Assembly (NCBI GenBank): GCA_021810565.1
Contig: JAJZIM010000001.1
Coordinates: forward strand, 1 to 64,000
From: Bacillota bacterium
GTDB lineage: Bacteria > Bacillota > Sulfobacillia > JAJZIM01
Length of the DNA: 64,000 bases
Direction of reading: 5' to 3'
In this document: positions 1 to 55,092 of the stretch, piece by piece
How the letters are laid out: every line of letters begins with the position of its first letter
Position numbering within the stretch: position 1 is the first letter of the stretch
Translations under genes and position numbers: made by a program
The notes under the pieces: model-generated
Told to the model about the DNA's origin: nothing
Databases searched by the model: none
The model's input: the letters and a program-made list of their open reading frames with translations, nothing else

Positions 1-76
1 TACCGTCTACCCACTTGCACTCGGCAATGTAGTAGTAGGTCTTGCCCCTGACCTTTTTCTTCACCAGGTAGGCCAC
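1..76 (-). CDS. IS1634/IS4-like transposase, N-terminal fragment (runs off left edge)
   Basis: Minus-strand translation from GTG at 76 reads V-AYLVKKKVRGKTYYYIAECKWVDG, typical of the N-terminus of IS1634-type transposases; AGGGGG ribosome binding site upstream. Confidence 0.6.
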   Translation of the reverse strand, partial: MAYLVKKKVRGKTYYYIAECKWVDG

Positions 77-42709: not shown

Positions 42710-44167
42710 TCAGTCGGCGTGAACCGGTTTGCCCAGCGGCGCCTCGCCCTGCTCCAACAGGTGCTCGGAGGAGGCGTCCCGCAGGCTCTTGCCCTTGGGC
42801 TCCCCCAGCACGGCCCAGGTCAGAAGCAGCCCCAGCAGGGAGATCACCGCCAGGATGCCCATGGTGCCGGGCAGTTTAAGGGAAACGAGCATCAGGGGGA
42901 ACAGGAAGGCGGCCACGGCGGCCCCCGCCTTGCCCGTGGAGGCGGAGATGCCGAAACCCCAGCCGCGCACCGTCACCGGGAAGACCTCCGCCGGGAAGAC
43001 GAAGGTGGTGCTGTTGGGGCCGAATTCAATGAAGAAGTAGCTGACGGCATAGACCAGCAGGAAGGCCACCGGTATGGCCGTGAGTCCCGGGAAGAGGAAG
43101 ATGGCCGCATAGGCCAGGGCCATCACCGCGAACCCCAGCATCTGGATGAAACGGCGCCCCAGCCGGTCGATGGTGAGGGCGGATACCCAGTAGCCCGGCA
43201 CCGCCGCCACCAAGAAGATCAGGCCGGCGACCAGGATGCCGGAGAGCATGGTGGCGTGGGGCAGCAGGGCCTTCATCACCAGCCCCGAGGAGACGCCGTT
43301 GCCGTAGAAGGCCATGTCCAGGAACATCCAACTGAAGGCCGTGCCCACCAGGGTCAGCAGGTACTTGGGGTTGGTGAACAGCACGGTCCAGGAGCCGTTC
43401 AGCTTGGCCACCCGGCCCTCGGCCGGCACGCTGGTGCCGGTGAGCTTGCCCACCAGCCGCGCGGTGCCCGCCACGTCGCCCCGCACGCCCAGGGAGAAAT
43501 GCGGGGTCTCGGCGATCTTGCGCCGCAGGTAGATCACCGCCGCCGCCGGGATCGCGCCCAGGCCCAGCATCAGCCGCCAAGCCAGGTCGTGGGACACGCC
43601 GAAGCCCAGCAGGATGGCCGCCACCGCCGGACCGGCTAAAAGACCGAAGCCCTGCATGGCGAAGACCGAGTTGACCAGAAAACCGCGCTTTTTCCGGTTG
43701 GAGTATTCGCTCATGATGACGCCGCTCATGGGGTAGTCGCCGCCCACCCCCAGACCCACGATGAACCGGAAGACGATCAGCATCCAGATGCTGGTGGAGA
43801 AGGCCGAGAGCACGGCCCCGACGGTGAGCAGCACCGCCTCCACGCCGTAGATGGCCTTGCGGCCGAAACGATCCATGAGCCGCCCGAAGAAGAGCGCCCC
43901 CAAGACGGCGGCCGCCAGCGCCGTGCTGTTCACCAACATCAGGTCCAAGGTGGTCAGGTGCCAAATCGGCACCAGCAGGGTGGTCACCACACCGATGATG
44001 AACAGATCATAGGCGTCGGTGAAGAAGCCCATGCCCGCCGTGAGCCAGGTGCGGAAATGGAAACCCTTGAGACCCGTTTCCTCCAGAGGCTGCAGCACGC
44101 GGTCACGCAGATCGCCCGAAGCAGCTTCTGCGCCCAACCCGATCCCTCCTTCCGAATGTCGCGTCAC
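42710..44167 (-). CDS. MFS transporter, PHS-type phosphate:H+ symporter-like
   Basis: 'TAGMGFFTDAYDLFIIGVVTTLL' and 'GVGGDYPMSGVIMSEYSNRKKRG' match PHS-family signature segments; GTG start. Confidence 0.8.
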   Translation of the reverse strand: MTRHSEGGIGLGAEAASGDLRDRVLQPLEETGLKGFHFRTWLTAGMGFFTDAYDLFIIGVVTTLLVPIWHLTTLDLMLVNSTALAAAVLGALFFGRLMDRFGRKAIYGVEAVLLTVGAVLSAFSTSIWMLIVFRFIVGLGVGGDYPMSGVIMSEYSNRKKRGFLVNSVFAMQGFGLLAGPAVAAILLGFGVSHDLAWRLMLGLGAIPAAAVIYLRRKIAETPHFSLGVRGDVAGTARLVGKLTGTSVPAEGRVAKLNGSWTVLFTNPKYLLTLVGTAFSWMFLDMAFYGNGVSSGLVMKALLPHATMLSGILVAGLIFLVAAVPGYWVSALTIDRLGRRFIQMLGFAVMALAYAAIFLFPGLTAIPVAFLLVYAVSYFFIEFGPNSTTFVFPAEVFPVTVRGWGFGISASTGKAGAAVAAFLFPLMLVSLKLPGTMGILAVISLLGLLLTWAVLGEPKGKSLRDASSEHLLEQGEAPLGKPVHAD

Positions 44168-44188
44168 GATCCGAGGCCCTCCAGCCGC

Positions 44189-44242
44189 AGCGTAGCACCC
44201 CCCCGTTAAGGCCCGGTTAAGAGGAGTTTAAGCTGCGGTTAA
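44189..44242 (-). promoter_or_regulatory. Pho-box-like array (4 x TTAA, 11-bp period) plus -10-like TACGCT
   Basis: TTAA starts (plus coords) 44206, 44217, 44228, 44239; N11 then TACGCT at 44194..44189 (minus). Confidence 0.85.
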
Positions 44243-44534
44243 GCTCCGCCGGCATCACCTCCCCCTTCAGCAGCAGGGCACCCCCATCCTCGCCCAAAGC
44301 CAGCTCCAAGGCCCAACTGCCCTCGCCGCCGGCCACGGAGCGGATCCGGTGCCCGTCCAGGTGGGCCACCACCTCGCCGCCCCGGGCGAAGAGGATCCGG
44401 CTGCCCTCCAGCCAGAACTCGCTGAAGAACACCTTGCCGGCAAATCCCGAGCGGGGGTCTCCCAGGTGAAACTCCATGCATCCCCGGCCCATGCCGGCGC
44501 GGGACAGCCAGCACCGCAGCTGTCGGGAGTCCAC
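44217..44534 (-). CDS. hypothetical protein
   Basis: GTG 44534 with GGAAGGAGGG; 'CMEFHLGDPRSGFAGKVFFSEFWLEGSRILFARGGEVVAHLDGHRIRSVAGGEGSWALELALG'. Confidence 0.6.
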   Translation of the reverse strand: MDSRQLRCWLSRAGMGRGCMEFHLGDPRSGFAGKVFFSEFWLEGSRILFARGGEVVAHLDGHRIRSVAGGEGSWALELALGEDGGALLLKGEVMPAELNRSLNSS

Positions 44535-44560
44535 CGCCCGCCCTCCTTCCCCGCGCCCCG

Positions 44561-44962
44561 TCACAGGACGGGCGCAGCCAAGAGCTCCAGAGCCGCCGCA
44601 CCCAGCAGGGCCAGGCTCAGCGGTCGCCAGCCGGTCCATCGCGCGGGAAGCAGGATCCAGACGAACGCAGCCGCCAAGCTCCCCGCCGCCCCCCACTCCC
44701 AGGGCCGCCCGGCCAGGCAGGCCATGGTCACCACCGCACCTACCTCCCAGGGGCTGCCCGAGGGAGCAAGCCGGTCCAGCAACCCCAAGACGGCCACCAG
44801 CACCAGGAAGCCGGCGGCCAGGACCTGGGCGAACTGCCGCAGTTCCGAAGTGAAAAGCCAGGACAAAAGCCAGGCCGTCGCGATGCCCGCCGGCACCCCC
44901 AAGCTCCCCCGCCCGAGCCTCGGTTCGGACCACACCGCCAGGAAACCCGCCGCTGCGCCCAA
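44561..44962 (-). CDS. multi-TM membrane protein
   Basis: Several hydrophobic segments; downstream of a TTAA array. Confidence 0.6.
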   Translation of the reverse strand: MGAAAGFLAVWSEPRLGRGSLGVPAGIATAWLLSWLFTSELRQFAQVLAAGFLVLVAVLGLLDRLAPSGSPWEVGAVVTMACLAGRPWEWGAAGSLAAAFVWILLPARWTGWRPLSLALLGAAALELLAAPVL

Positions 44963-44986
44963 GGCCCTCCCCCTCCTTCCCGATCC

Positions 44987-45051
44987 AGGCTAGCACCCTT
45001 TTGTTGCGCTGGCGTTATGGACGTCTTAAGGCCGCTTTAATTCTCGGTTAA
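44987..45051 (-). promoter_or_regulatory. Pho-box-like array plus -10-like TAGCCT
   Basis: TTAA at 45026, 45037, 45048, degenerate units at 45015 and 45004, then N11-TAGCCT (44992..44987, minus). Confidence 0.75.
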
Positions 45052-45099
45052 TGACCCCCCGGCTCCGTCCAGGCGCCCCGCAAGCCAGGAGAGCGGCGG

Positions 45100-46008
45100 T
45101 CAGGCCGGCCCGAAGACGGGATGGGTAAAGGCCAGGAGGCGCTCGCCGACGGCCACCTCACCCCGGCACCACTCCCCGGGAGCAGCGCACCAGCGGTGCT
45201 CCAACAGTCCCCGCCCGCGCACCCGGCGGCCGGCCCACGGCCCCTGCGGCCCCACCAGGCGCAACTCCACCGTGCCCGGCCAGCCGCCCAGGTAGGCCAG
45301 GCGCAGCGCCACCTCCCCCGCCGCCTCGTCTCCCGGCAGCAGGTCGCCCTCCCCGGTCAACACCAGCCGCGGCCCCACGGAGACGAACACCCGTCCCCGG
45401 CGCAGGGCCTCCACCACGTCGCTCAGCGCCGCGCCCGCCGCGTATACCCAGGTGCTGGCCCACTCCTCCCCCGCCTCGCCGCCGCCGTGCCAGTCGCGCA
45501 CCCCCAGGGGCACCGGGCGCTCCCCCGCCGTCAAAAGCTCCTCCCAGCGGCGCAAGGCCGCCCGGTTGTGGGGACGTTCCTGGGGATCGGGCCCGTGCCA
45601 GACCTCCACGGCGTCCGCCCCCTCCCAGTCGGCAAAGTCCCAGGCGCAGCCGGCGCAGACGCTCCCTCCCACGAAAAAGGGATGGGCCACCGCGGCCAAG
45701 CCACCCGCCGCGCGGATACGCCCGAATAGGCGGGGGGCGTCCCCCCGCCCCAGATCCCGCCACTCCACCGGACCCCAGGTTCCCAAGGCCAGGGCATGGC
45801 CGTGGAAGGTGGTCACCTCCACTCCCGGCATCAAGGTCAGGCCCGACACCTGGGCCGCCTCCCGCCAAGCCGCTCCCGTGTCGTGGTCGGTCACCGCCAG
45901 GAAATCGTAGCCTTGGGCGCGGCAGCGCCGGGCCGCCTCCGCCACCGACTCCGCCCCGTCGGAGTGGTGGGTGTGGTGATGCAGGTCACCCCGCAAAAGC
46001 CGCATCAT
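45100..46008 (-). CDS. PHP-domain metallohydrolase (CehA/McbA-like)
   Basis: 'LLRGDLHHHTHHSDGAESVAEAARRCRAQGYDFLAVTDHDTGAAW...PGVEVTTFHGHALALG...AVAHPF'. Confidence 0.87.
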   Translation of the reverse strand: MMRLLRGDLHHHTHHSDGAESVAEAARRCRAQGYDFLAVTDHDTGAAWREAAQVSGLTLMPGVEVTTFHGHALALGTWGPVEWRDLGRGDAPRLFGRIRAAGGLAAVAHPFFVGGSVCAGCAWDFADWEGADAVEVWHGPDPQERPHNRAALRRWEELLTAGERPVPLGVRDWHGGGEAGEEWASTWVYAAGAALSDVVEALRRGRVFVSVGPRLVLTGEGDLLPGDEAAGEVALRLAYLGGWPGTVELRLVGPQGPWAGRRVRGRGLLEHRWCAAPGEWCRGEVAVGERLLAFTHPVFGPA

Positions 46009-46496
46009 CGCTCCCCCCAGACGGCCAGTTCGAAGCAGCATCCCCGGCTGACCATGCTGCGCACCGCCACCGCCACCCGCCAGCGGCCGGGCACCAGCGG
46101 CCGCACCTCGTAGCCCGGCGTGGCCGCCTCGGAATCCAACTCCACCACCTGACGTCCCTCCAGCCGGTGCCGGGTACCCCGGTAGCCCAAGGGATCGTAG
46201 ACCGCCAGGCTGAGGAAGTTCTTGGGCCGGTGCAGGCCCGGGTAGTCGCTCGCCTCCACCGGCCGTCCCACCCGCCGGGCATTGTCCGCCAAAGCGTCGC
46301 GCAAAGCCGCCGCCTCCTCCCACTCCTTGGCCCACGGTTCCCAGTGCAGGACCAGTCCCAGGCGCGCCACCCCCGGCGGCACCCGGAAGGGGAAGCTGCG
46401 GCAGCCGGGCGCATCCGAACGCACCAGCCGGCCCGCCACCCGCAAGAGCTCCCGACGGGCGAGGGTCGGGGCCGCCGAACCCCATGTGGTGTTCAT
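46005..46496 (-). CDS. hypothetical protein, paralog family A/B (copy A)
   Basis: 'GCRSFPFRVPPGVARLGLVLHW...NFLSLAVYDPLGYRGTRHRLEGRQVVELDSEAATPGYEVRPLVPGRWRVAVAVRSMVSRGCCFELAVWGE'; homologous to 51132..51623. Confidence 0.75.
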   Translation of the reverse strand: MNTTWGSAAPTLARRELLRVAGRLVRSDAPGCRSFPFRVPPGVARLGLVLHWEPWAKEWEEAAALRDALADNARRVGRPVEASDYPGLHRPKNFLSLAVYDPLGYRGTRHRLEGRQVVELDSEAATPGYEVRPLVPGRWRVAVAVRSMVSRGCCFELAVWGER

Positions 46497-46999
46497 GCCT
46501 CGACCTCTGCCGCCGCCCCGGCAGGAAGGGGCCGCGTCGTCATCTGCTCCAGGGAGTGCGCCTTGCCCTGCACCCCGTAGAGCGACCAAAGGGTCATGCC
46601 CGCCAGGCCGACCCCGGCCAAGGCGGCCATCCCGGCGAAAACGCCTGCCGTACCGTAAACGGCGTAGAGTCCGGCGAAGGCGGTGGCGAAGGTACTCAGG
46701 CCGTAGAGCAGAATGGTGGTCAGGAAGAGGCGTTTGCGCCCCAGCCGGTCCACCAGGGTCGAGAAGATCAGCGCCCCACCCAGGGCTCCCAGGAGGAAGA
46801 TGCTGCCCACCCAGGCTCCCTGCACCACGTTCAGATGAAAGACGCGGGAGAGATAGGCCAGCATGGGGCCCACCACCGTGACCTCGAAACCGTCCAGGGC
46901 CCAGCCGGCTCCCAGGGTCAGGAGCACCGTGGTGTGGAAGCGGTTCCAGCCCAGCCGGTCCAGCCGCCCCGGCAGGTCGCTATACAGGTACCCCGCCAT
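46493..46999 (-). CDS. shortened MFS-like protein (about 4 TM), probably internally deleted
   Basis: 'RFHTTVLLTLGAGWALDGFEVTVVG...VDRLGRKRLFLTTILLYGLSTFA' joined to C-terminal-like 'LYGVQGKAHSLEQMT'; 168 aa, ATGA-type overlap with next gene. Confidence 0.65.
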   Translation of the reverse strand: MAGYLYSDLPGRLDRLGWNRFHTTVLLTLGAGWALDGFEVTVVGPMLAYLSRVFHLNVVQGAWVGSIFLLGALGGALIFSTLVDRLGRKRLFLTTILLYGLSTFATAFAGLYAVYGTAGVFAGMAALAGVGLAGMTLWSLYGVQGKAHSLEQMTTRPLPAGAAAEVEA

Positions 47000-47102
47000 G
47001 CGCCGCCACCCCTTTCGCGCAGGTTTTCCGCCCCAAAAGCCGGGACATCCCCGACCACCCATCGGCCCCTCCCGCGGCAAGCGCCGCTCCCGACCGGCGG
47101 TC

Positions 47103-47453
47103 CTATCCCGACACTTGGTCGGCGGCGCCCTCCCCCTGAGCGTCGTCCGGCGTTTCGACCCAGGGCCGCAGCACTCGCCACGCCCGTTCCGCCATCGGAT
47201 ACCCCGGCTCGTGGGCCGGGAGCAGGCGAACCGGGAAGAGGTCGGGGATGCTCCCCGCCAGCCGCTCGCGGATCACCGGGTCGTCCGTCAGGATCTCCAG
47301 CACCTGACCCCCTGGCAGGTGCTCCACCGCCCGGCGCACGGCCTTCAGGTTGCGCGCCACCCCCGGTTCGCCGCGAAGATCCAACCGCAAGGGCCGCTCC
47401 GCCTGGCCGTCCGTCCTCCCGAGGGTGCGGACCGGGGCCACCTCTACCGTCAC
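47103..47453 (-). CDS. TusA/SirA-like protein lacking the CPxP cysteine
   Basis: 'LRLDLRGEPGVARNLKAVRRAVEHLPGGQVLEILTDDPVIRERLAGSI'; GTG 47453 with GGGGGAGGG upstream. Confidence 0.55.
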   Translation of the reverse strand: MTVEVAPVRTLGRTDGQAERPLRLDLRGEPGVARNLKAVRRAVEHLPGGQVLEILTDDPVIRERLAGSIPDLFPVRLLPAHEPGYPMAERAWRVLRPWVETPDDAQGEGAADQVSG

Positions 47454-47493
47454 TGGGCCATCCCTCCCCCGCCGTTCTTCGGGCACCAAATAA

Positions 47494-47558
47494 AGGATAG
47501 GGGATGAGCTTTAAGGGGCGCTTAAGTCTGCCTTAAACCCAGGTTAACCAACGGTTAA
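47494..47558 (-). promoter_or_regulatory. Pho-box-like array (5 x TTAA, 11-bp period) plus -10-like TATCCT
   Basis: TTAA at 47511, 47522, 47533, 47544, 47555; N11 then TATCCT (47499..47494, minus). Confidence 0.88.
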
Positions 47559-47641
47559 GCCGCCCCGCCAAGGCGCGATAGGCTTCCCGGAACACCGAGC
47601 CGCCGACGCTTCCCGCCCTGCCGCTGGGCCAGGCGGCGCCT

Positions 47642-49150
47642 TCAGTCGCTGGGGGTTTCCGTGATCAGGGTCGCTTGGAAGGCCCGGCGGAAGGCGACCT
47701 CCCAACCGGCCGCCTCCCGGCGCTCCCATACCCCGTCCTCCGGAGCCGCCACCGTGAGGTGCCACGCCGCCGGGCTGCCGCGTCCCCCCAGCACCCGCAC
47801 GGCGGCAGGCGCATAGCGGCCCAGGCTCCAGGCCAGGCTCGCCATCACCCCCAGGCGGCGGATGCGTCTTCGATCCCCGTCCGCCAACAGCCGGGCGTAC
47901 GGCGCCAGCAGGGCCTTCAGCTCCGCCGGGTCCCCCCGGTAGGCCGCGGCGGCGGCCATGAGCAGGGTCTCCCGTTGGGAAAGCCCCCGCACCGTCCCAT
48001 CGACCAGCAGTTGGAAGGTGTGCCGCCCCTCTTTGTACGGCCCGACCGCCATGCCGGCCTCCCGCAGGGCGGCGGCGGCCGTCAAAACGCGCCGCCATTC
48101 GTCCTCCAGGCCATGCAGCGGCTTCAAGGCGTCCCACAGCTCCCCCGCCAGGCGGACCGCCTGCTGCGAGCGCCTCCGGTCCAGGCCATGGAGGATCAGG
48201 AAGCTCTCCACCCCGGCCTCCAGCACGTCGCCCAGCACCGGCGGGCGCCGTCCGGCCAACAGCCGCTGGTAGATCAACCCCTCGCGCAGCCCCGCCCCGC
48301 TGACCCAAAGTTCCGACGCCCCCGCCCGCCGGAAGGCGGCGCGGACCAGGGCGCCTCCCGCAGCGATGAGGCCGGCCCGCTGGGGGATGAGCCCCGGCAA
48401 ACCTTCCCTCTCCCCCGTGGTCAGCCTCCCGACCACCTCTTCCAACGCCCCGGCGGACATGCGGTAGTTGTGCAAAGGCAACAGTTCCAGCCGCCTGACC
48501 TTGCGGTCGATCTTGGCCAGGGTGCGCACCGTGCCCCCCACCCCGACCAGGGGCAGTCCGAAAGGAACGCCCCGCAGCGCGGGCAAGGCGTCGAAGGCCT
48601 CCGCCAGGCAGCCTTCCAGGTCCGCGGCCGGGATGGCGCCGTCCGCCAGGCGCTCGGTGAGGTTCAGCGCCCCGAGCGGCAAGCTGCCCGACCCGGTCAA
48701 GCGCCGTCCCGCGAAGCGCACCACCTCGGTGCTCGCGCCCCCCACGTCCAGCAGCACGCCCTCCGTGGCGGGCAGGGTGTTCAGGGCGCCCAGAAGGCTC
48801 AGCTCCGCCTCCTCCGCCGCCGAGATGACCCGCAGGGGCACGCCGGCGGCGGCCCGGGCCGCCGCGCAAAACTCCTCGCCGTCGGACGCCTGCCGCACCG
48901 CGGCGGTGGCCACGGCCATCAGATGCTCCACCCCGCGCTCCTCGCAGATGCGCGCGAAGCCGCGCAGGGCCTCCAAGCCCCGCCGCCGGGCCGTCGGAAC
49001 CAAGGCGCCGTCCGGAACCAACCCCTCCGCCAAACGCACCCACGCCTTGGCCTGGTCCACCACCCGCCAAGCCGGCGCGGGTCCCAGGCGGACCACGCAC
49101 AGCCGAAAGGAGTTGGACCCGGCGTCGATGATCCCCAGGACCTCACCCAT
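47642..49150 (-). CDS. ppx: Ppx/GppA family exopolyphosphatase
   Basis: 'GIIDAGSNSFRLCVVRLG', 'GVLLDVGGASTEVVRF', 'LVGVGGTVRTLAKIDR'; ATG 49150. Confidence 0.9.
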   Translation of the reverse strand: MGEVLGIIDAGSNSFRLCVVRLGPAPAWRVVDQAKAWVRLAEGLVPDGALVPTARRRGLEALRGFARICEERGVEHLMAVATAAVRQASDGEEFCAAARAAAGVPLRVISAAEEAELSLLGALNTLPATEGVLLDVGGASTEVVRFAGRRLTGSGSLPLGALNLTERLADGAIPAADLEGCLAEAFDALPALRGVPFGLPLVGVGGTVRTLAKIDRKVRRLELLPLHNYRMSAGALEEVVGRLTTGEREGLPGLIPQRAGLIAAGGALVRAAFRRAGASELWVSGAGLREGLIYQRLLAGRRPPVLGDVLEAGVESFLILHGLDRRRSQQAVRLAGELWDALKPLHGLEDEWRRVLTAAAALREAGMAVGPYKEGRHTFQLLVDGTVRGLSQRETLLMAAAAAYRGDPAELKALLAPYARLLADGDRRRIRRLGVMASLAWSLGRYAPAAVRVLGGRGSPAAWHLTVAAPEDGVWERREAAGWEVAFRRAFQATLITETPSD

Positions 49151-49757
49151 GCCGGATCTCCCCCCGCGCCGCCCCAGCCCCCGTCCCCACCACCTGCAGG
49201 ACGCAGCCGAAGGCCGGCTGCACCAGGCAGGCCTTGCGCCGCACCCAATCCCCCGGAATCCTTTCCAGACCGTATATGAACAACCATGCCGCACGCCCCC
49301 CCGCATGGAAGTCCACCAGACGCACCGCGGGATCCCGGCTCCCGTCCAACCCGTCGGCCAGGCGCAACAGGGCGCACAGCTGCAGCACCCGCCGCGCCAG
49401 GTCGGTTCCCCACGCTGCCGGTGCGAGCCGGGGGGACTTGCGGTGGTTGCGCACCAGCAATCCCAAGGCGCTGCGCGCCGGCTCCGGATAGCCGGCCAGC
49501 AGTTCGTCGTGGCGGATCAGATATTGCCCATGGCGCTGGTGGCGGCCCTCGGCCACATAGCGGCCCAAGTCATGCACCCGGGCGGCGTGACGCAACAACG
49601 CCGCCTCGCCGCCGCCCAGCCGGTGGAAAGGCCGCAGCAACGCCCAAAGCTCGAGCGCGAAGGACTCCACCCGGCGATGGTGCGTCTCCTCGCAGCGATA
49701 TTTGACCGCCAGCGCGGCCACGGCGGGATCGTAGCGGGTCAGGAGCCTCTCCTGCAT
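49143..49757 (-). CDS. HD-domain protein resembling a Ppx C-terminal HD domain
   Basis: 'LLRHAARVHDLGRYVAEGRHQRHGQYLIRHDELLAGYPEPARSALGLLVRNHRKSP'; overlaps ppx start. Confidence 0.82.
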   Translation of the reverse strand: MQERLLTRYDPAVAALAVKYRCEETHHRRVESFALELWALLRPFHRLGGGEAALLRHAARVHDLGRYVAEGRHQRHGQYLIRHDELLAGYPEPARSALGLLVRNHRKSPRLAPAAWGTDLARRVLQLCALLRLADGLDGSRDPAVRLVDFHAGGRAAWLFIYGLERIPGDWVRRKACLVQPAFGCVLQVVGTGAGAARGEIRHG

Positions 49758-49761
49758 GACC

Positions 49762-50400
49762 TCACCCCTTCACCAGCAGCTCTTCCGCCCACCGACGCAG
49801 CTGCTCTTGGACCACCTGCCCCGGCTCCCCGGCGTCCACGGTACGAAAGCCGTGCTTGCCGGCGGCCTCGTCCAATACCCGCTGCAGGCGCTCCCAACGG
49901 TGCAGGAACTGGGCCGCGCCGCCCGGTCCGGGACGGTCCAGCTTCCCGTCCCGGGCCAGCACCCGCCGCAGCCCTTCCGCCGGAGCCGTCCTCAAGTACG
50001 CCGTGTGGGCCGCCGGGGCGAAGCGGAAAACCCGTTCCACCCAGGACCGGCGCGCCCCCGCCGTTCGGCAGACCGCCGCCAGGGTATGCACGTAGGGATG
50101 GACCAGCACCACGAAACCCGCCTCAAGCGCCGGGCGGATCCGGTGCTCCACCGCCTCGGCCAGACCGGCCGCCCGCCAGAGGCTGCCGGCCAACGGGTAG
50201 CCGTCCTCCCCCGCCGCGGCCCACCCCGGCTCTTCCCCGGTCGGGACCGTTTCCAGCACCGGCCAGCCTTGGACTTCCAGCCAGTCCCGCAGCATCGCCG
50301 CCTGGGCGGCACCGCCGGCCCCGGGGCACCCCTCCAAGGCCAGCAGCCGACCCGAAACCGACTCTTCAGTCGCCAGCCTCAAAGCGACGCGTCCAGGCAC
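49762..50400 (-). CDS. TMK-like protein with degenerate P-loop
   Basis: 'RLLALEGCPGAGGAAQAAMLRDWLEVQGWPVLETVPTGEE' aligned to TMK start; Walker A residues lost. Confidence 0.65.
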   Translation of the reverse strand: MPGRVALRLATEESVSGRLLALEGCPGAGGAAQAAMLRDWLEVQGWPVLETVPTGEEPGWAAAGEDGYPLAGSLWRAAGLAEAVEHRIRPALEAGFVVLVHPYVHTLAAVCRTAGARRSWVERVFRFAPAAHTAYLRTAPAEGLRRVLARDGKLDRPGPGGAAQFLHRWERLQRVLDEAAGKHGFRTVDAGEPGQVVQEQLRRWAEELLVKG

Positions 50401-51095
50401 GCCGCCGCCCGGCCCTCCCCCGCCCCGGGCAAACCCAAAAGCTCCCCCACCACCGCGCGGACCCGCTCCTGCTGACGCACCGCCGCGGTATCGGCGTCGA
50501 TCACCACCGTGCGCTCTCCCCGCAGCAGGCGGTCGTAGCGCTCCCGCACCCGTCCCTGATAGAGGCGGAAGCTCTCCGAGGGGTCCTCCGACAGGCCCAG
50601 ATCCATCCCCGCCTCATAGAAGCGGGGAGCGCTTCGGCGCGCCAGCACCCGTTGCAATCCGGTTTCGGGCGACGCCCTAAAGTACAGGACCAGATCGGGC
50701 CTGGCCGCAAAGCCGTACAGGCCGCGCACCCAGGCCGCCTTGCAGCTCCGCGCCCCGTCCCGGGCGTAGGCGGTGAACACGTAGCGGTCGGCCAGCACCA
50801 CCCAGCCGGCCTGGAGGTGCGGCAATATGCCCTCCTCGTAGCGCGCCGCGAAATCGCAGGCGTGCAAAAGGCTGTAGGTGAGGGGCGTCAGGCGCCGCCG
50901 CCGCTTGGCCTCCCGGATCCGCGGGTGCACCGCTTCCGAGGAGTTCCACGCCGTCCAATAGACCGCGGCTCCCTGCTCGATCAGCCACCGGCGCAGCAGC
51001 TGCAACTGGGTCGTCTTTCCGGAACCGTCGCAGCCCTCCCCCACGATCAGCCGTCCCGGGATCAGCCCCCACACCCCGCCGCGGCGTCCCGTCAC
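50379..51095 (-). CDS. thymidylate-kinase-like P-loop kinase
   Basis: 'LIVGEGCDGSGKTTQLQLLRRWL...WVVLADRYVFTAYARDGAR...PDLVLYFRASPETGLQRVLAR'. Confidence 0.82.
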   Translation of the reverse strand: MTGRRGGVWGLIPGRLIVGEGCDGSGKTTQLQLLRRWLIEQGAAVYWTAWNSSEAVHPRIREAKRRRRLTPLTYSLLHACDFAARYEEGILPHLQAGWVVLADRYVFTAYARDGARSCKAAWVRGLYGFAARPDLVLYFRASPETGLQRVLARRSAPRFYEAGMDLGLSEDPSESFRLYQGRVRERYDRLLRGERTVVIDADTAAVRQQERVRAVVGELLGLPGAGEGRAAACLDASL

Positions 51096-51131
51096 CCGCG
51101 TCCCCTCCCCCTCTTTCCAGCCGCCGGCCCC

Positions 51132-51623
51132 CTATGACCCGGACCACCCTCCGACCTCGCCTCCCGCGCTCTCCTCAGCCCACGCCGCCAGCTCGTAGCG
51201 GCACTGCGGGCTGGCCATCGCCCACACCGTGACGGTGGCCCGCCACAGGCCGCCGGCCAGCGCTCGCAGCTCGTAGCCGGGCGTGGCCTGGACGTCGTCC
51301 AGCACCACCCGATGGCAGCCCGCGAGGCGATAGCGGGTTCCCCGGTACCCCAGCGGATCCTCCAGGGACAAGGTGGCGAAATTCCCGGGCAGCCTCTCGC
51401 CGGGAAAATCCGCCGCGGACACCGGCCGCCCCAGGCGGCGGGAGGCCAGGGCCATGGCCCGCTGCCGCTGGATCCGCTCCTCCGGCCGCTCCGCCGTCAA
51501 CGGCTCGTACCAGAAGACCACCCGCAGCCGCCGCGCGCGCTCGCTCACCTCGAAGGGAAAGCTGCGGCAGTTGCCCGCGTCGTCCGGGGTCCACCGCCCG
51601 GTGACGGCCAGCAGCTCCCTCAC
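51132..51623 (-). CDS. hypothetical protein, paralog family A/B (copy B)
   Basis: 'NCRSFPFEVSERARRLRVVFWYEPL...NFATLSLEDPLGYRGTRYRLAGCHRVVLDDVQATPGYELRALAGGLWRATVTVWAMASPQCRYELAAWAE'. Confidence 0.75.
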   Translation of the reverse strand: MRELLAVTGRWTPDDAGNCRSFPFEVSERARRLRVVFWYEPLTAERPEERIQRQRAMALASRRLGRPVSAADFPGERLPGNFATLSLEDPLGYRGTRYRLAGCHRVVLDDVQATPGYELRALAGGLWRATVTVWAMASPQCRYELAAWAEESAGGEVGGWSGS

Positions 51624-52486
51624 GCCACATACTTCTCCAGGATCAGGGCCACGCCGTCCTCGTCGTTGCTGGCGGTGACCTCCCGGGCCAGGGCCTTCAG
51701 CTCGGGCACGGCGTTGCCCACGGCCACGCCCCAGCCCGCGTAGCGCAGCAGTTCCCGGTCATTGTGGTCGTTGCCCACCGCCAGCACCTGCCGGGGGTCC
51801 AATTCCAAGAGCCCCAGGAGGAAGGACAGCCCCCGGGCCTTGGAGACGCCCGGCGCGGTCAGCTCCAGGCCGGCCACGCCCCGGAAGGCCGCTCCCGCCG
51901 CGGCGCTGCCCAAGACCGAGGCCATGTCGGCCTCCACCCGGGAAAGCACCCGCACCGCCAGGGGCAGCTTTGCCAGCCGCCGGGCCGCCTCCCGCAGCCG
52001 CTCCGGCGAACCCCAGGTGAACAGCCGCAGCGGCGCGGGCACCTCGGCGGCCAGATCCGCCACCCGCACCCAGCCGGAGCAGCCCCGCTGGAGGACCCCC
52101 GTCCAGACCCGTTCCGGCAGCAATTCCTCGCAGTACACGTCCGCCGCCGCGTCGGCCCCGCTCAAGGCCAGGCGCGGCAGTCCCAGGCGGCGCAGCAGTG
52201 CCACCGCCCGGCCAAAGGGTCCCTCGGGCACCTCCTGCCGATGCAGAACCTCCCCCGCCGGGCGCAGCACCAGGGCCCCGCCGCACAACACCAAGGGCGT
52301 ATCGAGGGCCAACTCCCGCGCCAGGGGCAAACTCAGGCTGGGCCAGCGACCCGTGGTCAAGGTCACCCGCACCCCCGCCGCCGTGGCCCGTCCCACGGCC
52401 TGGCGCACCCGGGCGGAGAGCCGCCCCCGGCTGTCCAGGAGGGTGCCGTCCACATCCAGGGCCACCAAGCGCACCTCGCCTCGCAT
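51620..52486 (-). CDS. Cof-type HAD-superfamily phosphatase
   Basis: 'VRLVALDVDGTLLDSRGRLSARV...LTTGRWP...VLAVGNDHNDRELLRYAGWGVAVGNAVPELKALA'. Confidence 0.9.
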   Translation of the reverse strand: MRGEVRLVALDVDGTLLDSRGRLSARVRQAVGRATAAGVRVTLTTGRWPSLSLPLARELALDTPLVLCGGALVLRPAGEVLHRQEVPEGPFGRAVALLRRLGLPRLALSGADAAADVYCEELLPERVWTGVLQRGCSGWVRVADLAAEVPAPLRLFTWGSPERLREAARRLAKLPLAVRVLSRVEADMASVLGSAAAGAAFRGVAGLELTAPGVSKARGLSFLLGLLELDPRQVLAVGNDHNDRELLRYAGWGVAVGNAVPELKALAREVTASNDEDGVALILEKYVA

Positions 52487-52511
52487 CCGGACCGCCTCCT
52501 CTCCTGAGGAT

Positions 52512-52565
52512 ACCTTAGCGGCCCGGGTTTAAGCCGGTGTTAACCGGCGGTTAAGGTCCCGTTAA
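52512..52565 (-). promoter_or_regulatory. Pho-box-like array (4 x TTAA, 11-bp period) plus -10-like TAAGGT
   Basis: TTAA at 52529, 52540, 52551, 52562; N11 then TAAGGT (52517..52512, minus). Confidence 0.87.
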
Positions 52566-52586
52566 AGCCCACGGCGACCACGAGAC

Positions 52587-52640
52587 TTAAACGAGGCTTA
52601 AACCCATCCCAACCCCGTCTTCGCACCGGAAGGTTAGACT
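52587..52640 (+). promoter_or_regulatory. divergent short TTAA array plus -10-like TAGACT
   Basis: TTAA at 52587 and 52598, degenerate in-register units 52609 and 52620, then TAGACT at 52635. Confidence 0.5.
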
Positions 52641-52649
52641 GTCCCCCAG

Positions 52650-52856
52650 GTGACGGGAAAGGGGGTGAAGAGCTTGCCGTACCTGCCGGCCGCCGCGCTG
52701 GCCGCGGCGATTCTGGCCTGGTTCGGCGCCTGGGTGGCCTTCCACACGCCGCTCCTGGCGGTCTGGCGCCTGCCCCTGGTGACCGCCGGGACCGTCGCGC
52801 TCCTGGTGCTGGCCGGTGTGCATCCCGACGGCGGCGACCCGCCCCTGGGGGAATGA
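52650..52856 (+). CDS. small membrane protein
   Basis: '[46 protein letters not shown]', two hydrophobic segments. Confidence 0.6.
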   Translation: MTGKGVKSLPYLPAAALAAAILAWFGAWVAFHTPLLAVWRLPLVTAGTVALLVLAGVHPDGGDPPLGE

Positions 52857-52876
52857 CCCGGCGTCTTCCCGGGAAC

Positions 52877-52930
52877 TTAATCGCGGCCTAAAGGCTTCTT
52901 AACTCCCCTTTAAACCGCATCGGACAGGCT
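52877..52930 (+). promoter_or_regulatory. Pho-box-like array plus -10-like CAGGCT
   Basis: TTAA at 52877, CTAA 52888, TTAA 52899, 52910; N11 then CAGGCT 52925-52930. Confidence 0.82.
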
Positions 52931-52953
52931 GGAGGCAACTCGCGAGAGGAGGA

Positions 52954-54549
52954 GTGATCGTGGTGAAGCTCCCGCTGCGTCCCGTCCTGCCCCTGGCCCT
53001 CGGTCTGGCGCTTTTGACCCCGGCGGCCCTCTCGGCCCTCGCCCAGGCCCCGCCCCCGCTCCACGCGCCCGTCACCCACGTCATCGAGGTCATGCTGGAG
53101 AACCACACCTTCGACAACCTCTTCGGCAACTTCCCCGGGGCCGACGGCGTCCCCGCGAACGCCGCGCTGCCCAATCCGGACACCAACTACACCGCCGCGC
53201 CCGTCACCCCCGCCGGGGCGCCGCCCAACGAGGGGGACACGGTGGACATCAACCACAACCGGTCGGCGGAGGTCATGATGATGGACTACCGGCCCGCGCC
53301 GCTCGGGGGAGGCGCCGGCTACTACACCGGGCCCAACTTGAGCAACGCCTTCGATCCCGGCCCGCCCGGCTGGAAGATGAACTACTACACCACGGACCCG
53401 CAGAACAGCCTGGCCAGCATCACCCTCTTCGGCCAGGACAACCTCCCCAACGAGTGGTTCCTGGCCCGCCACTTCGTCCTGGCGGACCACAACTTCCAGC
53501 CCGCCATCGGCCCCACCCAGCCCAACCGGATCTACGCCGTGGCGGCCACGACCGACGGGTGGATCTCCGACAGCCCGCCCCCCAATACCCTGCCGATAAA
53601 GACGATCTTCGACGAGCTCGGCCAAAAGGGCCTTTCCTGGCGCATCTACCAGGGAGACTACAACGGCCCGCCTCCGACCCAGGAGGGCACCGGCTTCGTC
53701 ACCCATTGGAACCCCGCCTGGTACACCCCCATCCTGCAAAACAAGCACCTGTGGAACGACGTCGCCAACACGTCCCAGTTCTTCACCGACGTCCAGCACG
53801 GCAACCTGCCCAACTTCTCCTTCGTGGTGCCCACCTGGCTGTACAGCGAGCACCCGCCCACGGACATCCAGCAGGGTGACGCCTGGCTGGGCCAACTGGT
53901 CCAGGCGGTGATGGACAGCCCCTACTGGAACTCCACCGCCATCTTCGTCACCTACGACGAGGGCGGCGGCTATTGGGACCATGTCTCGCCGCCGGTGGCC
54001 TTCCGCTTCGGCTACGGCACCCGCACCCCCATGGTGATCGTCTCCCCCTACGTGCGTCCCGGGGTCTTCACCCAAACCACCAGCAACATCTCCGTCCTGT
54101 CCTTCATGCAGCAGCTGTGGGGGATGCCTCCTCTCAACAGCCTCAACGCCCGATCCAATGACCTCTTGGCGGCCTTCGACTTCCAACAAAAGCCCCTGCC
54201 GCCCCTGAACCTGCCCGACGTTCCAGCGGACAGCCTGCAGCTGGCCGACCCGCCGGAGAACCTCGCCGCGACGCCCAGTGTCCCCCTGACCGTGTACGTG
54301 CAGGCCAAGACGCCGGGGCTGACCCTGGACACCGGCCTGTCCGGCCCCGTGACGCTGCAGGCGGTGGAGCCGACAGGAGTGAGCGCCCCGGTGGGGATGC
54401 CCTCCACGGTGCAGTTGTCTGGGGGAACCGCCGCCTTCCAGGTAACCTTCCCCGCCATCGGCTACTATCGGCTGCTGGCCCAGGGTCCCGACGGATCCCA
54501 AGGTTGGGTCACCTTCGACGTCGGGGTGAGCGCCGCCACGGCACCCTGA
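52954..54549 (+). CDS. secreted phosphoesterase (acid phosphatase/phospholipase C-type family)
   Basis: Signal peptide; 'VTHVIEVMLENHTFDNLFGNFPGADGV...NEWFLARHFVLADHNFQPAIGPTQPNRIYAVAATTDG...IFVTYDEGGGYWDHVSPP'. Confidence 0.9.
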   Translation: MIVVKLPLRPVLPLALGLALLTPAALSALAQAPPPLHAPVTHVIEVMLENHTFDNLFGNFPGADGVPANAALPNPDTNYTAAPVTPAGAPPNEGDTVDINHNRSAEVMMMDYRPAPLGGGAGYYTGPNLSNAFDPGPPGWKMNYYTTDPQNSLASITLFGQDNLPNEWFLARHFVLADHNFQPAIGPTQPNRIYAVAATTDGWISDSPPPNTLPIKTIFDELGQKGLSWRIYQGDYNGPPPTQEGTGFVTHWNPAWYTPILQNKHLWNDVANTSQFFTDVQHGNLPNFSFVVPTWLYSEHPPTDIQQGDAWLGQLVQAVMDSPYWNSTAIFVTYDEGGGYWDHVSPPVAFRFGYGTRTPMVIVSPYVRPGVFTQTTSNISVLSFMQQLWGMPPLNSLNARSNDLLAAFDFQQKPLPPLNLPDVPADSLQLADPPENLAATPSVPLTVYVQAKTPGLTLDTGLSGPVTLQAVEPTGVSAPVGMPSTVQLSGGTAAFQVTFPAIGYYRLLAQGPDGSQGWVTFDVGVSAATAP

Positions 54550-54582
54550 TCCCATCGGGATCCGCGGCGATCGTCCCCTGCA

Positions 54583-54612
54583 GGGTAGCGGCACCGGCCG
54601 CTACCCTTTTTT
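54583..54612 (+). terminator. rho-independent terminator
   Basis: GGGTAGCGGC-ACCG-GCCGCTACCC-TTTTTT. Confidence 0.92.
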
Positions 54613-54789
54613 CGCCTGGCTTCCAGGCCCATAGCCCAAGCCGAGGAAGGCCCGGACCACCCCCGACGCTGAGGATGCGCAGGCGGACGGTTGCTGCCTC
54701 CGAAGGCTGGCGGCCCATTGGCGGCCGCCCGGCAAAGTCCGGACGCGGGACGCAGTCTTTCTTGATGCAAGCCTTGCTGATCTTCCACC

Positions 54790-54875
54790 CGCCTACATGC
54801 ATCCCTGGCTCTTCACCCAAACCGCCAGTAACATCTCCGTCCGGTCCTTCACGCAGCATCTGTGGGGGATGCCAT
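54790..54875 (+). pseudogene. fragment duplicated from the phosphoesterase gene
   Basis: 'TCTTCACCCAAACCGCCAGTAACATCTCCGTCCGGTCCTTCACGCAGCATCTGTGGGGGATGCC' parallels 54064-54127. Confidence 0.75.
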
Positions 54876-55092
54876 CTCTGCGCCGACGCCTTTCGGACCC
54901 TCAAACGGAATACCCGCCTACCTTCCCGGACAGCTCGGCCCGAGTCCCCGCGCAGAGGTGCTCCTCGGCGGCATGCAAAAGACCAAAGGCGCCACCGGCC
55001 GCTCCACTCCATTCGTCGGGACAGCAGGAACCGCCTTTGTGCCTTGACGGGACATAGGTGACTGACTATATTGGTCATGGAGGTGAAGGAGT

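Follow-up and report, generated by a model that had tools for sequence, protein, structure and literature searches.

We propose that the core of a six-gene operon in the window (the whole 64,000-nucleotide stretch of DNA analyzed here) is a polyphosphate (polyP)-cycling module induced by Pi limitation, in which two adjacent thymidylate kinase (TMK)-like proteins, TMKa and TMKb, form a hetero-oligomeric TMK-fold polyP kinase related to PPK3. We put the probability of this reading at roughly two in three. How would such a module work? TMKa would bind ATP through its intact P-loop and would add phosphate to, or remove it from, a polyP chain held at a cationic acceptor site (K64, R85, R112 and R116) that stands in place of the dTMP pocket. 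The most likely reaction, carried out on TMKa, would be ATP + polyP(n) = ADP + polyP(n+1). TMKb would lack catalytic activity or have it impaired, and would probably serve as a structural or polyP-binding partner. The exopolyphosphatase Ppx would provide the hydrolytic side by hydrolyzing polyP, while the HD protein would supply the phosphohydrolase activity lost from domain III of Ppx. We infer the polyP kinase activity of the pair and its direction from observed gene content, motifs, co-occurrence and a Pho box. The operon and the array upstream of it are laid out as follows.

52529..52601, no strand assigned: Pho-box-like TTAA array with 11-bp spacing, 43 bp upstream of the HAD start (TTAA at 52529, 52540, 52551 and 52562, with an additional pair at 52587/52598)
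51620..52486, minus strand: HAD, the first gene, a Cof-type HAD-IIB hydrolase (PF08282 2e-40, TIGR00099 2.2e-37)
51132..51623, minus strand: family B, an orphan of 163 aa without a Pfam or NCBIfam match
50379..51095, minus strand: TMKa, probable catalytic subunit (P-loop EGCDGSGKTTQ, WNSS, DRY, ARDxxR)
49762..50400, minus strand: TMKb, predicted pseudokinase partner (P-loop EGCPGAGGAAQ; HPY in place of DRY)
49143..49757, minus strand: stand-alone HD protein with an intact HD motif, paralogue of Ppx domain III (PF21447 4.7e-21)
47642..49150, minus strand: Ppx/GppA-type exopolyphosphatase of 502 aa (PF02541 9.8e-43; TIGR03706 9.3e-69, under its cut-off)

From HAD to Ppx, the six ORFs follow one another with junctions of -4, +36, -22, +4 and -8 nt, and GC3 is coding-like in all of them (0.85-0.92). 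These values bear out the earlier note, which had read the region as a six-gene minus-strand operon with overlapping or short junctions, and the two adjacent TMK-fold genes that it had contrasted do differ in having an intact (TMKa) and a decayed (TMKb) P-loop. The likely start of Ppx is the ATG at 49150, and its core matches PF02541 at 147 bits against a cut-off of 27. HAD lies outside the conserved core, as it is not among the recurring neighbors of the TMK pair.

To place the pair in a wider context, we assembled 118 TMKa loci: 80 broad loci from a profile search of named genomes, 12 from Sulfolobales and Nitrososphaeria, and 26 from the class of the window genome (six genomes of the class sample with TMKa, TMKb, HD and Ppx, and 20 further loci). 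The broad loci span Nitrososphaeria, Thermoplasmata, Acidobacteriota, Verrucomicrobiota, Chloroflexota, Planctomycetota, Nitrospirota and others. Gene order, on which the earlier note had staked its reading, is conserved as TMKa-TMKb-HD-Ppx or Ppx-TMKa-TMKb-HD in 24 of the 26 class loci. The exceptions are L205, where the contig stops inside HD, and L214, which has TMKa-TMKb-Ppx and no separate HD gene. A second TMK paralogue adjoins or lies near TMKa in every one of the 118 loci. TMKs are homodimers, and this constant pairing suggests a TMKa/TMKb heterodimer. In a phylogenetic tree, TMKa forms one well-supported clade separate from housekeeping TMKs; TMKb falls mostly beside the TMKa clade, although its placement is unsafe because of long branches. 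Judged by sequence comparison, TMKa/TMKb is an ancient gene pair tied to polyP metabolism in many bacteria and archaea, and it probably makes polyP in organisms lacking a textbook PPK1-type enzyme.

Which genes accompany the pair? Recurring neighbors are Ppx, SixA-type histidine phosphatase, CHAD, PhoU, PstB-like ABC ATPases, PhoB-type regulators and PPK2; CHAD is a polyP-binding domain (PMC6537752). Ppx is present in 46, CHAD in 34 and SixA in 28 of the 80 broad loci, and Ppx is counted in 26/26 class loci, including L205, which has only an HD fragment at the contig end. Taking Ppx, CHAD, SixA, PPK2 or a separate HD gene within 6 kb as polyP-linked, we found at least one such gene at 57/80 broad, 12/12 archaeal and 26/26 class loci versus 0/8 housekeeping-tmk loci. 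Counting against the association, no polyP-linked gene lay within 6 kb in 23 of the 80 broad loci, or in 13 of the 40 with full flanks, though half of the broad loci have truncated flanks. None of the 61 class genomes sampled contains PPK1 (PF02503). PPK2 (PF03976) occurs in five of the 61, all five among the six genomes with the pair (P = 1e-6 by genome, 5.5e-5 by family), and adjoins the operon in three of these five. In the window genome, a draft of 115 contigs with an estimated completeness of 99.4%, neither PPK1 (PF02503) nor PPK2 (PF03976) was matched, making the TMK pair its best candidate polyP kinase. PPK2 resembles the pair in being a P-loop kinase that acts on polyP, and co-occurs with it, but represents a separate family: the window operon proteins have no match to PF03976.

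Might the pair mainly spend polyP rather than make it? A polyP-dependent nucleotide kinase that uses polyP for NDP/NTP, with the polymer made by something else, would be expected among the same neighbors, the TMK fold accepts nucleotides, and the pair does occur beside PPK2. However, where the pair occurs PPK2 is already there to do this job, and we see no other candidate polyP synthase, PPK1 being found in 0/61 class genomes and PPK2 being absent from the window genome. We therefore regard a polyP-spending role as unlikely, and polyP synthesis by the pair remains our preferred reading.

TMKa shares the fold, P-loop and DRY motif of thymidylate kinases (PF02223/TIGR00041). It exceeds the TIGR00041 dTMP-kinase equivalog cut-off (93.4 versus 83.25 bits; TMKb, at 20 bits, does not), so annotation as thymidylate kinase is to be expected for genes of this kind. 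Its closest structure, ST1543 (2PLR, 4NZY, 4RZX, 5H70; profile E 3.2e-73), carries the name dTMP kinase in its PDB deposition, which includes a complex with ADP. The score and the deposition would both suit a scheme in which TMKa is a true second kinase for dTMP or another NMP, TMKb is a regulatory relic, and the link to Ppx reflects only Pho co-regulation. Three observations make this still less probable than a polyP-spending enzyme. First, in all six pair genomes tested a single additional TMK is encoded at another locus, and the separate housekeeping tmk sought in the window genome is present at G000:C24:19124-19666. Second, the housekeeping EPGG, the Arg of FAAxR, Ser-Ser and Tyr, which we take to be the dTMP-site positions of TMK structures, are replaced across the 118 TMKa sequences by WNSS, F/L, T-A and Arg (window positions 50-53, 82, 108-109 and 112), and TMKa has gained invariant cations at K64, R85, R112 and R116. 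Third, the cross-phylum association with polyP genes is absent at housekeeping tmk loci. Moreover, ST1543 is itself encoded in a SixA-Ppx-TMKa-TMKb operon (L161), whose TMKa agrees with 2PLR/ST1543 at every position of the printed alignment; the solved "dTMP kinase" thus belongs to the TMKa family. With the gene order conserved and a separate tmk present, neither condition that the earlier note had named as refuting its reading holds. Together with the replaced dTMP-pocket residues and the array sites, this favors the dedicated polyP or nucleotide phosphotransfer module under Pho control that the note had suggested in place of dTMP synthesis, its catalytic activity being a prediction. The other tmk of the window genome has a long branch and PDYET for EPGGT, and resembles eukaryotic or archaeal-type TMKs.

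The two members of the pair have very different residue patterns. TMKa keeps the Walker-A Lys in 118/118 sequences and WNSS in 117/118, while in the 118 TMKb partners the Walker-A Lys position is occupied by Arg (104), Lys (9), Cys (3) or Gly (2). TMKb sequences with Lys include those of Gastranaerophilales and of several Sulfolobales, the latter with a changed DRY. In Gastranaerophilales (L101, L104, L107, L114, L120), both TMK copies have the Walker-A Lys and DRY, possibly the ancestral state, and the second copy may be active. In the S. acidocaldarius-type TMKb (L156:4963-5595), decay has taken another course: the P-loop Lys is still there, and the Arg of DRY is gone (DG). In relatives, TMKb dN/dS values of 0.06-0.42 indicate purifying selection. 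The window TMKb alone matches TMK profiles weakly (PF02223 0.012; TIGR00041 4.3e-4, 20 bits), and a direct search of the genome contigs with the TMKb sequence alone returned no matches; profile searches were thus needed. It is nevertheless a member of the conserved family of second copies, and structure prediction gives it a TMK-like fold with good confidence (pLDDT 89), with ST1543 as the best PDB match (E 2.2e-13). A PPK2-like identity for TMKb was considered and rejected, since its nearest relatives are TMKs, ST1543 first. That TMKb is a decaying pseudogene in the window lineage, leaving TMKa to act alone, would fit its long branch and its loss of the P-loop Lys, Ser/Thr and DRY, but is very improbable given the intact ORF with coding-like GC3, the 22-nt overlap with TMKa, the confident fold, an equally decayed TMKb with an intact ORF in a second lineage (GGPGSGGAE; L217:2524-3255 in G342), and the presence of a second copy alongside TMKa in 118/118 loci. 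More broadly, a two-subunit TMK-fold polyP synthase, built from a catalytic subunit and an Arg-P-loop pseudokinase, could be widespread in Bacteria and Archaea and the main maker of polyP where PPK1 is missing, and the window TMKb, devoid of nucleotide-binding hallmarks, could serve as a scaffold or polyP clamp; for this broader picture we see the chances as evenly balanced.

What controls the operon? The 11-bp TTAA triple pattern has 11 overlapping matches in the window, in five arrays, versus 0.00 expected from shuffling. Genome-wide it has 15 positions, corresponding to seven sites, five of them in the window. Of the two others, one lies ~70 bp upstream of a gene for a PstS-like binding protein and the second ~15 bp ahead of a response regulator ORF of the PhoB type, which is followed further on by pst-like genes. 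An 11-bp direct-repeat box is common to the operon and to pst/phoB genes, the mark of a Pho regulon, and since the genome has no array sites beyond these two and the five of the window, the Pho-like promoter proposed earlier is strengthened. The five window arrays lie ahead of or next to an MFS transporter, a CehA/McbA metallohydrolase unit, a small ORF with an MFS fragment, the TMK operon and an ABC transporter. The region forms a Pho island (42710-60321) containing the five TTAA arrays, MFS transporter, CehA/McbA unit, operon, a PF04185 phosphoesterase near the operon array (52954-54549) and the ABC transporter (56500-60321). The operon array is a genuine Pho box, and given this island, control of the operon by Pi starvation is well supported. 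Of 22 class relatives checked, none has a TTAA array ahead of the operon, which indicates a Pho box restricted to the window lineage.

Is the window pair related to an archaeal system already described? Archaeal PPK3 is reportedly related to thymidylate kinases. Sulfolobales loci carry SixA-Ppx-TMKa-TMKb-CHAD; in L156, which we take to be the S. acidocaldarius locus, the CHAD match is weak (22.1 bits versus a cut-off of 25.6). The window TMK pair is homologous to the pair beside the L156 ppx. In S. acidocaldarius, ppx is Saci_2018 (PMC7831078); Sulfolobales lack PPK1 and PPK2 (PMC6864096), and the polyP synthase of S. acidocaldarius has been reported as a distinct "family 3" PPK (cited in PMC11677633 and PMC13318637). 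We consider it very probable that the window module is a bacterial relative of the archaeal PPK3 system of Sulfolobus (Hofmann et al. 2026, J Biol Chem 302:111283; preprint 10.1101/2024.08.28.610084). In Sulfolobales, the group in which PPK3 was described, the same TMKa-TMKb pair lies directly beside ppx and a CHAD-like gene. The window system differs in being bacterial and Pho-box regulated, in its far more decayed TMKb, and in having a separate HD gene and neither CHAD nor SixA in the operon. The same gene set has been presented as CHAD context in the form of a SixA-Ppx-dTMP kinase-CHAD cluster from biomining archaea (PMC10892726, Figure 2); in the passages on this cluster, the dTMP kinase gene appears by name in a legend and nowhere else, and there is no mention of a pair, a pseudokinase or a role in polyP synthesis. 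As a general kind, PPK3 is already announced for Crenarchaeota. In the literature searched, we found no description of how widely the pair occurs in bacteria, of the Lys-to-Arg change as a rule for the pseudokinase, of the association with PPK2 in genomes without PPK1, of the separately encoded HD or of the extreme decay seen here in the second subunit; the primary PPK3 papers may cover some of these points.

If the pair makes polyP, it would explain polyP synthesis in PPK1-less bacteria and in ammonia-oxidizing archaea, of which Nitrosopumilus maritimus has polyP granules and no known polyP genes (PMC11082331). The pair would also be a clean catalytic/pseudokinase system for study, in which decay of the second subunit is naturally graded.

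A second instance of paralogue divergence is found in the HD protein. The earlier note held that the HD domain of Ppx is encoded separately; a stand-alone HD gene does exist, but Ppx still has its own domain III (PF21447, residues 311-405, 6.5e-5, under the curated cut-off), in which the motif is degenerate (HD to RE, LREAG), and the separate protein, with VHDLG, is an intact paralogue. Since Ppx keeps domain III, we rejected a split of Ppx as the origin of the HD gene. Across loci, the HD motif is intact in 29/29 separate HD proteins and lost in 22/22 Ppx proteins having a separate HD gene; it is kept in 22/54 Ppx proteins without one, many of the remainder lacking the domain. As paralogues, Ppx domain III and the stand-alone HD protein have divided the labor between them after duplication, in parallel with TMKa and TMKb.

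Family B has a paralogue (51% identical) at 46005-46496, next to a CehA/McbA metallohydrolase. This paralogue lies directly upstream of the CehA/McbA ORF (NF038032, 177 bits), the two together covering 45100-46496, with a TTAA array (45026-45051) nearby. A search of 154 class genomes yielded no convincing relative of family B; one weak candidate, in L219, was rejected as spurious, as it sits among thiamine genes. The AlphaFold model of family B is poor (pLDDT 50). Family B presumably resembles the N-terminal domain of CehA/McbA proteins and may be a split N-terminal domain of a protein of this type. Beside the paralogue, a truncated MFS fragment (46493-47080; ~95/347 positions of MFS_1), possibly a remnant, lies behind a strong TTAA array at 47511-47558.
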